From Candidatus Polarisedimenticolaceae bacterium (GTDB lineage: Bacteria > Acidobacteriota > Polarisedimenticolia > Polarisedimenticolales > DASRJG01), in contig DASUCV010000017.1 of assembly GCA_036275915.1 (NCBI GenBank), forward strand, positions 1-64,000: a stretch of 64,000 nt of DNA, in the 5' to 3' direction. The translations under genes were made by a program, and so were the position numbers. Positions 24,262 to 27,653 of the stretch are shown here, piece by piece. A model generated the notes under the pieces. It made no database searches and was not told the DNA's origin. It saw only the letters and a list, made by a program, of their open reading frames with translations. The stretch's first letter is position 1, and each line of letters starts with the position of its first letter.

Positions 24262-24267
24262 ATTATA
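24262..24267 (-). promoter_or_regulatory. TATAAT box embedded in the feoA stop codon
   Basis: The minus strand reads GTATAATCC, where the feoA TAA stop lies inside a perfect TATAAT. It is 29 bases before the TPR gene ATG. No good -35 is present at 16-18 bases. Confidence 0.3.
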
Positions 24268-24484
24268 CCGGCTCCACGAAGATCTCATCCGCGACCTCCG
24301 CGTCGACCGCGATCGAGGTCTCGCCGACGCGGATCACGACGGCGGGCCGACGCTGGACCAGGAGAATCGTCGCCCCGGCCACGAGGCCCAACGCGGACAG
24401 CCGGACGGCCCGCGCCGCCTCCGTGCTCCCGATTTTCACGACCGTTGCCGTGGTTCCGGGCTTCAGACGCGTGACGGGCGTCAC
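24263..24484 (-). CDS. feoA: FeoA-like SH3 protein
   Basis: The 73-residue protein matches FeoA: VTRLKPGTTATVVKI, then a helix with RLSALGLVAGATILLVQRR and a closing strand VVIRVGETSIAVDAEVADEIFV. FeoA binds the cytosolic part of the iron channel FeoB. The GTG start overlaps the stop of the zinc-ribbon gene (GTGA), which supports it over the longer open frame. It lies last in feoB-zinc ribbon-feoA, whereas feoA usually comes first. Confidence 0.85.
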   Translation of the reverse strand: MTPVTRLKPGTTATVVKIGSTEAARAVRLSALGLVAGATILLVQRRPAVVIRVGETSIAVDAEVADEIFVEPV

Positions 24485-24717
24485 GCGCCCGAGCGTCCGC
24501 CGAAGAGGCGCTTCGCGAAGTCGAGGACAAGCGAGCGCCGGGGGAATTGATACCCGCAGGACGGACACTTCACGATCTCGCATCCCGCGTTCATGGGACA
24601 GGAGCCGCAGACGAGGGTCCCATGACTGAAGCGCGCGCCGCACAGAGGACAGTCGAACGGCGTGGCGTCCGCCGTCGACGCCGCGATCGGAATGAAGGGG
24701 GTCGACTCGGGCGGCAT
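24481..24717 (-). CDS. Cys-rich zinc-ribbon protein between feoB and feoA
   Basis: This 78-residue protein has seven cysteines: CPLC (23, 26), CGSC (37, 40), Cys46 and CPSC (51, 54). The pattern suggests a double zinc ribbon or an Fe-S/iron-binding module. The C-terminal part is basic. Its ATG overlaps the feoB stop by one base (TGATG) and its stop overlaps the feoA start, so all three are tightly coupled. It is not like FeoC, which is a winged helix. A role in FeoB function or iron sensing is inferred from position only. Confidence 0.75.
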   Translation of the reverse strand: MPPESTPFIPIAASTADATPFDCPLCGARFSHGTLVCGSCPMNAGCEIVKCPSCGYQFPRRSLVLDFAKRLFGGRSGA

Positions 24718-26708
24718 CACCGGAGCGAGATGTGGAAGGCGCGGAGCGTCCAGTTGAGCGCGGCTCCCACGGCGATGGCGAACGGGAAGATGAAGGCCGC
24801 GATCGCGGCGCCGGTCTTGAGCCCACGCTCGCGCACCATCATGAAGAAGTTCGCGATGCACGGGATGAAGAGTGTGATGACGACGACCGCTACCACGACC
24901 TGGACCGGATCGAGTCGTCCCGCCTCGGCCATGTGGTAGAGGCCGGCCGCGCCGAAGTCGCGCCGCAGGAAGCCGACGATGAACGCTTCGGAGCACTCTT
25001 GCGGCAGCCCGAGGACCTTGCCGAGGAACGGGCCGCACGCCCGCTCGAGCCCGCGGAGCAGGTCGAGACGGTCGGCGACGAAGAGGATGAGGGTGCCGAG
25101 AACGAAGAGCGGGACCGCCTCCTTCAGATACCACTCGATCCGCGCGACGGTCTTGACGAGGATGTTGCGGGTCCGCGGGATCCGGAGCGGAGGAAGCTCG
25201 AGCACGAAGTCGCTCCCCTTCCCGGGGATGACGCGTGCCGCGAGCGCGCCGACGCCGACGATCGTCCCGATGACGATGCCGAGCCAGATGAGCATCGCGA
25301 CCGGTGAGAGCGCGCCGAGCATCGAGAGGACGACGGTGAGCTGCGCCGAGCACGGCACGCCCAGCGCGAGCAGGAGGATGACGATGAGGCGCTCCTTGCG
25401 CGTCTCCAGGATTCGCGTCGTGAGGGTCGCCATCGTGTCGCAACCGAGACCGAGAACCATCGGGAGGACGGCCTTGCCGTTCAGCCCCATCTTCTTGAAG
25501 ACACGGTTGACCATGACGGCGAGGCGCGGCAGGTAGCCGGAATCCTCGAGAACGCCGAACGCGATGAAGAACGTCCCGACGATCGGGAAGACGAGCGCGA
25601 GCGAGTACGTGAGCGCCATCGTCAAGACGCCGTAGGGGCCGACGAAGAGATCGCGCACGAGCGTCCACGGGACGTAGGCGTCGAAGAATCGGGTCGCCGC
25701 GGGATTGATCCACCCGTTGAAGAGGCCGTTCTCGAGGAGATCGACGAGAGTCTTCGCCCCCAAGACACCGACGAATTCGTACGCCAGAAAGAGCACGCCG
25801 GCGAGCACGGGAAGGCCCCAGACGGAGTGCGTCGCAGCGCGCTCCAGGATCTCCTTCACGCCGTGCCGTGCCGTGGCCGCCGCGGCGGCCCGCGTGCGGA
25901 CGCGAGCGGCGATCTCCCACGCCGCCTTCAGGCGCGTCTGATTGATGACCGCCGCCAGCGGCTCCTGCGAGCACTGCTGGGCCTCGGCCTTGATGGTCCG
26001 CACCGCGGTGACGCCGCCGTTCAGGTGAGGCGCGAGCGATTCGAGGAACGCGTCCCCTCCTCCCAGGATCATGAGGGCGAGGGCGCGCGGCGCGATCGAC
26101 GCCTCCGACAGGCGCGGCGCGATCGCAGCCACCGCCGTCTCGATCGGCGCGGGATAGTCGATGTGGACCCGCCCGCAGCGAGGGGCCGCGAGCGCCCGCC
26201 GGACGTCGTCGAGACCCGCGCCCGTGATCGCCACCGTCGGAATCGCCTCGACGCCGAGGGCGTCGGCAACCGCGGCGGGATCGATCGCCCACCCCGATGC
26301 AGTCACCTCGTCCCACATGTTGAGCGCCAGGACGAGGGGTCGCTCCATCTCGCCGAGCTGGAGCGCGAGGAGGAGCGTTCGCTCCAGGTTCTTCGCATCG
26401 CCGACCGCGAGCACCGCCTTGGCGTCCGCGCTCAGGACGACGTCGCGGGTGACGCGCTCGTCGTCGGACGAGGGCGCGAACGAGTTCGTGCCCGGCGTGT
26501 CGATCAGCGGGATCCGCGCCCCGCCGAGATCGGCGTGACCGCGTGTGATCTCCACCGTGGTGCCGGGATAGTTCGAGACCGTGACGTAGCGCCCGGTCAG
26601 GGCCCCGAACATGGCGCTCTTGCCGACGTTCGGGTTGCCGACGAGGATGACGCCGTCTCGTGAGGGCGCCGGGGCCGATGTGTCGTCGCTGAGAAGCGCT
26701 TCGCTCAA
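24717..26708 (-). CDS. feoB: Ferrous iron transporter FeoB
   Basis: The 663-residue protein starts with a G domain: G1 GNPNVGKSA (about 24), G3 DTPGTNSF and G4 ALNMWDE. A regulatory helical region follows, then about eight membrane helices with the paired Gate-like motifs (GLGCDTMATLTTR, VPCSAQLTV and FIPCIANFFMM). It imports Fe(II). The start is a TTG with GAGG nearby; no ATG or GTG fits before the G domain. It heads a feo operon behind a palindromic operator. Confidence 0.95.
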   Translation of the reverse strand: MSEALLSDDTSAPAPSRDGVILVGNPNVGKSAMFGALTGRYVTVSNYPGTTVEITRGHADLGGARIPLIDTPGTNSFAPSSDDERVTRDVVLSADAKAVLAVGDAKNLERTLLLALQLGEMERPLVLALNMWDEVTASGWAIDPAAVADALGVEAIPTVAITGAGLDDVRRALAAPRCGRVHIDYPAPIETAVAAIAPRLSEASIAPRALALMILGGGDAFLESLAPHLNGGVTAVRTIKAEAQQCSQEPLAAVINQTRLKAAWEIAARVRTRAAAAATARHGVKEILERAATHSVWGLPVLAGVLFLAYEFVGVLGAKTLVDLLENGLFNGWINPAATRFFDAYVPWTLVRDLFVGPYGVLTMALTYSLALVFPIVGTFFIAFGVLEDSGYLPRLAVMVNRVFKKMGLNGKAVLPMVLGLGCDTMATLTTRILETRKERLIVILLLALGVPCSAQLTVVLSMLGALSPVAMLIWLGIVIGTIVGVGALAARVIPGKGSDFVLELPPLRIPRTRNILVKTVARIEWYLKEAVPLFVLGTLILFVADRLDLLRGLERACGPFLGKVLGLPQECSEAFIVGFLRRDFGAAGLYHMAEAGRLDPVQVVVAVVVITLFIPCIANFFMMVRERGLKTGAAIAAFIFPFAIAVGAALNWTLRAFHISLR

Positions 26709-26747
26709 GGAGACCGGCCTCGAACGCGCCGCTCCCCGGCGCGATTT

Positions 26748-26774
26748 TCTAGTTGCGAACGGTTCTCAACTAGA
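26748..26774. promoter_or_regulatory. Palindromic Fur-like operator at feoB
   Basis: A 27-base near-perfect palindrome (12 of 13 pairs, central base 26761) has the core TTGCGAACGGTTCTCAA, close to Fur-type sites of the GAGAAT-ATTCTC class. A further GAGAAC half lies at 26776-26781, forming GTTCTC-N8-GAGAAC with the first site. The block covers the predicted feoB transcription start. Fur is the known repressor of feo genes; the site could also suit another iron or manganese regulator. Confidence 0.7.
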
Positions 26775-26781
26775 CGAGAAC

Positions 26782-26810
26782 AGTGTAGAGAGCGGGCCGA
26801 ATGCTGTCAA
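26782..26810 (-). promoter_or_regulatory. feoB promoter
   Basis: TTGACA (26810-26805), 17 bases and TACACT (26787-26782). The transcript would start near 26775, inside the operator block, so an iron-bound repressor would block it. The -35 overlaps that of the divergent gene. Confidence 0.7.
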
Positions 26811-26832
26811 ACCGCGGCGGTGCCCGTATACT
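26804..26832 (+). promoter_or_regulatory. Promoter of the divergent small secreted protein
   Basis: CTGTCA (26804-26809), 17 bases and TATACT (26827-26832) precede the ATG at 26857, with GGAGGG at 26843-26848. Five of the six -35 bases are shared, in opposite orientation, with the feoB promoter. Confidence 0.6.
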
Positions 26833-26856
26833 TGGGAATCTCCGGAGGGATCGACG

Positions 26857-27189
26857 ATGACCGCACGAAAGAAAGCCCTGGCGACGATCGCCGCCGCCAC
26901 GATCATGTTCGCCCTGGCCGCGCGTACGGCGAGCGCCTGTGACGAGCATGCGAAGGCCGACGACAAGGACGCCAAGGATGCGAAGGCGGCCGTCGCGGCC
27001 GACACCAAGGACACCACGGGCGGCTGCACGATGCCCTGCTGCGCCAAGAAGAAGACCGCCGCCGAGGCGAAGGTCGTCGCTCCCGCCGCCGACGCGAAGG
27101 CCAAGAAGACGGCCGCGGTCGCGAAGGCTCCCGAGGTCCCCGAGGCCGCGAAGGCCGAGGCCCCCGCGGGCGCCGGGTCGAATCGCTGA
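26857..27189 (+). CDS. Small secreted Cys-motif, Lys/Ala-rich protein
   Basis: The product has 110 residues. A signal peptide (ALATIAAATIMFALAARTASA) precedes a segment with CDEH, an Asp/Lys-rich stretch and GGCTMPCCAKKK. The tail is Ala/Lys/Pro-rich and resembles disordered histone-H1-like tails. The ribosome site and promoter support expression. The Cys cluster and charged stretch could bind metal, which would fit the divergent feoB operon and shared control region. No known family is recognised. Confidence 0.62.
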   Translation: MTARKKALATIAAATIMFALAARTASACDEHAKADDKDAKDAKAAVAADTKDTTGGCTMPCCAKKKTAAEAKVVAPAADAKAKKTAAVAKAPEVPEAAKAEAPAGAGSNR

Positions 27190-27224
27190 CCCCGTCGCGT
27201 CGCGCGTCCGAGTCCGCCGTCGAG

Positions 27225-27653
27225 ATGACCGAAATCGTCCTCCCCGAGGACACGAACTCGCGCGGGTACGTTTTCGGCGGACGCGTCCTGAGCCTCATCG
27301 ACAAATGCGCGGCGATCGTCGCGATGCGGCACGCCCGCTCCGACGTCACGACCGCGTCGATGGACAGCGTCGATTTCTCGAACGTGGTTCGCATGGGCGA
27401 GATCATCGTGCTGAACGGGCGTATCAATTCCGCCTTCACCACCTCGATGGAGATCGAGGTCGAGGTCCACGCGGAGGACCGCCTGACCGGCAAGCGGACG
27501 CCGACGACGCGTGCGCTCGTCACGATGGTCGCCCTCGACGGCGACGCGAAGCCTCACCGCGTGCCGGCCCTCGAGTCCGTGACGGACGGCGAGCGTCGGC
27601 GGGCGGCCGAAGCGCAGGAGCGGCGGCGGACGCGGCTGTCGCGCCGGGGCTAG
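27225..27653 (+). CDS. Acyl-CoA thioesterase, hotdog fold
   Basis: The 142 residues match single-hotdog acyl-CoA thioesterases: EIVLPEDTNSRGYVFGGRVLSLIDKCAAIVAMRHA (catalytic Asn/Asp region) and DSVDFSNVVRMGEIIVLNGRINSAFTTSMEIEVEV. They hydrolyse acyl-CoA to free acid and CoA. The C-terminal 35 residues are a basic tail. The ATG at 27225 is the only start; the family motif continues a few codons upstream (SESAVE), but no start codon is there. It is convergent with rng, with a 4-base overlap. Confidence 0.88.
   Translation: MTEIVLPEDTNSRGYVFGGRVLSLIDKCAAIVAMRHARSDVTTASMDSVDFSNVVRMGEIIVLNGRINSAFTTSMEIEVEVHAEDRLTGKRTPTTRALVTMVALDGDAKPHRVPALESVTDGERRRAAEAQERRRTRLSRRG

Follow-up and report, generated by a model that had tools for sequence, protein, structure and literature searches.

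A 27-bp palindrome in front of the feoB operon of this bacterium is very probably a docking site for the iron sensor Fur, placed so as to switch off the ferrous-iron transporter gene feoB when iron is plentiful. We put the probability at about 0.85 that the palindrome is a Fur box which shuts the feoB operon when iron suffices, and that the -35 element which the feoB promoter shares with a divergent promoter reflects local chance or drift. Read from its sequence, the locus appears to combine an ordinary Fur-repressed feoB, in a mini-regulon made up of feoB, fur and a porin-like gene, with a local overlap of promoters. Bacterial iron control of this kind is ordinary, and the predicted Fur box here is G+C-adapted. 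The analysis supplies a usable Fur-box consensus for one G+C-rich bacterial family, TTGMGAANNNTTCKCAA, extended here by TAG/CTA on either side, and a small set of candidate targets: the feoB operon, fur and the porin-like gene.

The palindrome and the promoters at feoB

The gap of 148 bp (26709-26856) between feoB and the divergent gene holds the palindrome and two sigma-70-like promoters. The palindrome, which has no strand, occupies 26748-26774, with 13-nt arms (26748-26760 and 26762-26774) around a one-base centre and 12 of the 13 arm pairs complementary; its 17-bp core lies at 26753-26769. Fur boxes are inverted repeats, some 17-19 bp long around a single central base, that lie at the promoters of iron-uptake genes, and this 13-1-13 repeat at feoB has both features. 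Its assignment as a predicted Fur box draws on the symmetry, on the genome-wide matches to the core and on the relatives. In the window, that is, the whole stretch of 64,000 nucleotides analysed, such a palindrome is unremarkable: three of equal quality are present, with 0.33 expected on average from a first-order Markov model of the window (15 simulated windows). Its notability therefore comes from its location and not from symmetry alone. The chance that a palindrome this good would fall within the 148-bp gap is estimated at about 0.001.

The predicted feoB promoter (26782-26810, minus strand) consists of TTGACA (26810-26805), a 17-bp spacer and TACACT (26787-26782), and the predicted promoter of the divergent gene (26804-26832, plus strand) of CTGTCA (26804-26809), a 17-bp spacer and TATACT (26827-26832). 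If the starts are placed 7 bp past the -10 elements, transcription of feoB would begin at about 26775 and that of the divergent gene at about 26839, some 64 bp away. The palindrome would then cover about +2 to +28 of the feoB transcript, and about -91 to -65 relative to the divergent start. The two -35 hexamers overlap by 5 bp (26805-26809). A promoter scan of 26000-27600 found these two, compared with 0.1 expected in shuffles, and a simple weight matrix built from approximate E. coli hexamer frequencies ranked the two first and fourth among the 639,720 placements scored in the window. By the same scan, this is the only pair of such strength in the window with overlapping -35 elements. The predicted polymerase footprints (-55 to +20) also overlap (26755-26830 for feoB, 26784-26859 for the divergent promoter), and the box falls outside the second of these. 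The original prediction had described a near-perfect palindrome over the feoB start, with the feoB and divergent promoters overlapping at their -35 boxes. The palindrome and the overlap are borne out by these results; the placement needs correction, since the palindrome is not centred on the start but lies at it or just downstream.

The motif at fur and in relatives

The genome (4.53 Mb in 24 contigs) contains one FUR-family gene and one DtxR-family gene. The genome-wide search for a Fur motif that had been proposed with the original prediction gave the feoB site as the sole exact match to the strict 17-bp core, TTGMGAACNGTTCKCAA, and, at one mismatch, only C4:589456 and C4:589972, which flank the single FUR-family gene; the window's simple base composition leads one to expect 0.0007 matches with no mismatch and 0.04 with up to one. 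The site at C4:589456 precedes the start of fur by about 18 bp, so that fur itself carries the motif at its promoter, and C4:589972 lies just behind fur and before the porin-like gene. A 23-bp version of the motif, allowed up to three mismatches, had just two hits, at feoB and behind fur, and its reversed control had none. Against the relaxed core, the site behind fur has no mismatch and the fur-promoter site has one, as does a fourth site, C11:201139, whose surrounding ORFs include no recognisable iron gene. With looser matching the genome is at control level, with 9 sites versus 12 in the control for the relaxed core at two mismatches and 15 versus 16 for the strict core at three. A wider regulon is therefore not claimed: C11:201139, C1:150319 and the other sites with two to three mismatches are no more frequent than in the reversed control.

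The single FUR-family protein (PF01475, 83.5 bits) has as its best match among solved structures the Fur chain 9ire (E 2.9e-19). When the alignment is read with the two additional residues of the crystallised chain taken into account, H39, E90, H97, H99 and E110 align with H33, E81, H88, H90 and E101, the site-1 ligands described for Magnetospirillum gryphiswaldense Fur (PMC4506495), and Y62/R63 align with its DNA-reading Tyr56/Arg57. Thus the genome encodes a Fur whose activating metal ligands appear to be in place. By the same reading the site-2 ligands are mostly missing, and the protein has two CxxC pairs (C102/C105 and C142/C145). Among NCBIfam models the best is a Fur model, far below its cut-off, followed by PerR models; no Fur model reaches its cut-off. 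Fur is favoured over PerR by the glutamates at the two acidic ligand positions and by the nature of the target genes.

The sole relative in the set from the same family, a sister genus (G001), shows much the same layout. Its Fur orthologue is 71% identical, exact relaxed-core boxes flank the gene on both sides, one of them 75 bp before the FUR domain, and the box behind fur precedes a homologue of the porin-like gene (58% over 373 aa). At feoB, a box with two mismatches follows directly after TTGACT-17-TATTCT. A second FUR-type gene of G001 has no box. Within the same order, G004 has at feoB TTGACA-17-TAGATT and then a box with one mismatch; G006 and G008 have a box at a fur gene, while the fur genes read in G003, G004 (both of its copies) and G005 have none. 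A link between the two genes that does not depend on the motif comes from six relatives (G006, G008, G013, G016, G017 and G020), in which a FUR-family gene immediately precedes feoB and has the same orientation. In G006 and G008 (L010 and L011) the Fur-like box precedes the very fur gene that adjoins feoB.

More widely, the relaxed core with up to two mismatches occurs in 7 of the 28 feo upstream regions of relatives, and two control patterns in 0/28 each, a count that is partly circular in that the relaxed core was chosen after some of the feo sites had been seen; a 29th relative, L021, lacked upstream DNA and was excluded. Two further sets played no part in shaping the core. One consists of public feoB loci, the best 80 of 524, whose matches span many phyla, including Thermoanaerobaculaceae and Acidobacteria, and here 8/80 carry the box at up to two mismatches (control 0/80). 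The other consists of the relatives' fur loci, 30 of the 62 listed having been scored; the box is present in seven, in every case just upstream of fur, and the control pattern in one. Five more fur genes were read separately, and two of them (in G001 and G012) have a box. The box is missing from most of the relatives examined: from 21/28 feo upstream regions, 72/80 public feoB loci and 23/30 fur loci.

At the feoB site described here and in the seven positive relatives (G001 from the same family, G004 from the same order, G018, G021, G025 and G029 from the same class, and G054 from the same phylum), the core starts 8-13 bp past the -10 of a strong promoter (8/8). This spacing does not hold everywhere. 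The distance is 4-8 bp in six of the eight public loci and 35 and 50 bp in the other two; one of the six with short spacing has a second box 31 bp away. At fur promoters it ranges from -2 to 12 bp, and by the site behind fur no good promoter stands at the corresponding position.

A typical E. coli Fur motif has a 7-1-7 arrangement, TGANAATNATTNTCA, with a half-site close to the TGATAAT type. The feoB core differs from this at three positions, yet it contains TTCGCAA, which is present also in a footprinted Fur operator, that of feoAB1 in M. gryphiswaldense. Fur binds this operator with a 25-bp footprint that contains TTCGCAA, and the crystallised variant, in which three bases were changed for symmetry, forms an inverted repeat of 8-1-8 layout, TTGCAAAT-C-ATTTGCAA (PMC4506495). 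The 8-1-8 layout equals TTGMGAAC-N-GTTCKCAA in the present site, both sites belong to a ferrous transporter operon, and it is the right half of the palindrome that shares TTCGCAA. Unlike the M. gryphiswaldense operator, the repeat here is longer (13-1-13), more G+C rich, predicted, and abutted by a divergent promoter. The smallest predicted Fur regulons, in Geobacter and Desulfuromonas, provide a second parallel. They comprise feoAB, fur and hypothetical porins, with a 17-bp palindrome at feo and fur, and their consensus had to be found anew as the E. coli profile found nothing (PMC545781). The genes with a box here are of these same three kinds, whereas the consensus differs (WTGAAAATNATTTTCAW there, TTGMGAANNNTTCKCAA here), and the porin-like gene here has no Pfam match over the cut-off. 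Its Pfam matches are all sub-threshold, the best that is compatible with a porin being BBP2 (E 0.013), and the label 'porin-like' comes from reading the sequence and is not meant as a family assignment. Among the titles listed by a literature search, to which subscription journals were largely closed, there was none on Fur in Acidobacteria.

Regulation of feoB and the divergent gene

In the mechanism that we propose, one or more metal-loaded Fur dimers would cover the feoB transcription unit from about +2 to +28 as long as the cytosol contains enough Fe(II). There they would prevent RNA polymerase from opening the strong promoter of feoB, or from escaping it, and so keep the predicted feoB/zinc-ribbon/feoA operon off. 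When iron becomes scarce, Fur would depart and transcription of the operon would follow. This Fur probably acts as a repressor of two further genes, fur itself and the porin-like gene that follows it. The sharing of the -35 with feoB would be a product of local sequence chance or drift; the divergent promoter probably fires at a basal rate, and any influence on it of occupancy at feoB is likely to be secondary. The in silico results support the part of the original prediction in which an iron-bound repressor switches off feoB: they comprise the genome-wide search, the recurrence of the layout in the sister genus, the boxes of other relatives and the conserved ligands of Fur.

The further proposal, that the shared -35 would force competition for polymerase and that the iron-bound repressor could favour the divergent gene, fared less well. 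In such an iron-dependent divergent switch only one polymerase would fit at a time; iron-loaded Fur would block feoB and free the -35, and the secreted cysteine-containing protein would become a product of iron-replete cells. The geometry accords with this, in that the -35 hexamers and the predicted footprints overlap, both promoters score high and the box lies outside the divergent footprint. Because the footprints overlap, polymerase exclusion is plausible if both promoters are active. Competition at bidirectional promoters of E. coli has been demonstrated once one direction was made strong; in the same work, however, competition at basal activity was too slight to have an effect at any of the five promoters examined (PMC12825309). 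Four of the six positions of the second hexamer follow from the symmetry of TTGACA, which on the opposite strand, shifted by one base, invariably agrees with the -35 consensus at four or more of six positions, so that sharing requires only a well-placed -10, here TATACT. In neither the same-family nor the same-order relative with the box was the arrangement found; the best opposing promoter overlapping the feoB -35 scores 0.6 and 0.9 there, compared with 10.4 here. The divergent promoter of the sister genus (TTGGCG-17-TATACT) is a separate one with its -35 about 80 bp from that of feoB, and in G004 no divergent gene is evident, feoB and its upstream neighbour having the same orientation. Over 12 other boxed feo loci (three boxed public loci, L138, L145 and L149, were left out of this scoring) the best opposing scores range from -3.0 to 9.0, and the higher ones (6.0, 8.4 and 9.0) belong to three Nitrospirae loci that are AT-rich by eye. 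Moreover, Fur bound at +2 may either exclude polymerase or trap it, relieving or worsening the competition, and in the second case the -35 would stay occupied. Nothing tested ties the divergent gene to iron. The overlap is real on paper and looks like a local peculiarity, and a switch of this kind seems unlikely. A lineage-specific form of it is somewhat less probable again; there Fur would act as a direction selector, making expression of feoB and of a secreted, possibly metal-binding protein that contains Cys and Lys mutually exclusive, and iron-loaded Fur would turn on the second gene without touching its promoter. If the promoter overlap does matter, it would offer a simple natural case of one gene's repressor indirectly activating its neighbour.

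Overlapping divergent promoters are known elsewhere. The E. coli bidirectional promoters resemble the present pair in that a DNA segment holds polymerase in one orientation at a time, but they share their -10 and have starts mostly 10-23 bp apart, whereas in the present pair it is the -35 that is common to both, and about 64 bp separate the starts (PMC12825309). The shared symmetrical -10 that characterises that class is absent, the two -10 elements lying at 26782-26787 and 26827-26832. The Pr and Pc promoters of plasmid pLS20 likewise are opposed and physically overlap, with a regulator site nearby; they differ from the present pair in that, in the arrangement favoured by the authors, the -35 of one promoter falls on the -10 of its partner and looping of the DNA plays a part (PMC4207663). 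The shared -35 can be seen as a variant of the overlapping divergent arrangement of which pLS20 Pr/Pc is an example, and it stands outside the class with a common -10 described by Warman et al. (PMC12825309).

The palindrome could instead be the operator of the one MntR/DtxR-like regulator that the genome encodes (C17:120299). DtxR-family iron regulators can control feo genes. However, the best NCBIfam model for this protein is the manganese regulator MntR, at 182.9 bits for a cut-off of 350, the 3.2-kb locus around its gene contains no relaxed-core site even at three mismatches, and the strict-core sites flank fur instead; this regulator was rejected as a candidate, and is very unlikely to be the one that acts at feoB. 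Its gene lies close to an ORF that by eye resembles an NRAMP-type metal transporter (L002:1294-3207). Least probable of all is that the palindrome acts as a hairpin in the feoB leader RNA and not as a protein site. It would be transcribed, and it folds into an 8+3-pair stem, but the fold is only mildly better than that of shuffled sequences (z -1.67, with 13/200 shuffles as good), the stem is not formed in the sister genus even though most of the motif letters are kept, and 26600-27000 contains no Rfam match at curated thresholds; the RNA reading was rejected on these three grounds, and similar letters occur in fur promoters besides. Two other features of feoB leaders were noted. Within the leader here, a plus-strand terminator-like stem of seven G-C pairs is followed by ATTTTCT (26725-26743). 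In the sister genus, a strong RNA hairpin behind the Fur box repeats the half-site (GTCGCAACTG ... CAGTTGCGAC, L022:1409-1446), and the leader fold has a z of -2.64, with 1/200 shuffles as good.

Genes flanking the site

The predicted operon under the Fur box lies on the minus strand. feoB (24717-26708) encodes 663 aa from a TTG start at 26708, a position at which the sister genus has GTG; the protein exceeds the cut-off of TIGR00437 and contains the Pfam domains FeoB_N, Gate and FeoB_C. It is followed by a gene for a small zinc-ribbon-like protein of 78 aa (24484-24717) and by feoA (24263-24484), whose FeoA domain matches PF04023 with 55.8 bits. On the plus strand, the divergent gene (26857-27189, ATG at 26857) encodes a Lys/Ala-rich protein of 110 aa with a signal-like N-terminus and four cysteines, and behind it lies a gene for a 4HBT thioesterase (27225-27653, plus strand, PF03061).

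The divergent protein has no Pfam match at 0.001 and no NCBIfam match near a cut-off, and no homologue at E<=0.001 in the 59 relatives. Its counterpart in the sister genus gives a low-complexity match (E 7e-7 with composition correction off), so that the case for kinship of the two is mainly one of position and composition. Two genera of one family, then, encode a secreted-looking Lys/Ala-rich protein with cysteines (CAKK or CCAKK) divergently from feoB (26857-27189, plus strand, in the window; L022:804-1187, minus strand, in the sister genus). As a guess, such proteins might be periplasmic metal binders.

The 78-aa protein matches zinc ribbons weakly, and no curated model in Pfam or NCBIfam exceeds its cut-off; it is a candidate Feo accessory protein. 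The papers searched included none that combines feoB, feoA, zinc ribbon and operon. Relatives of it were found by tblastn (E<=0.001, without composition correction) in 46 of the 80 public feoB loci, themselves the best 80 of 524. In 35 of the 80 the relative lies just behind feoB within the limits set, and in the other 11 it lies at an offset of -60, marginally beyond the limit.
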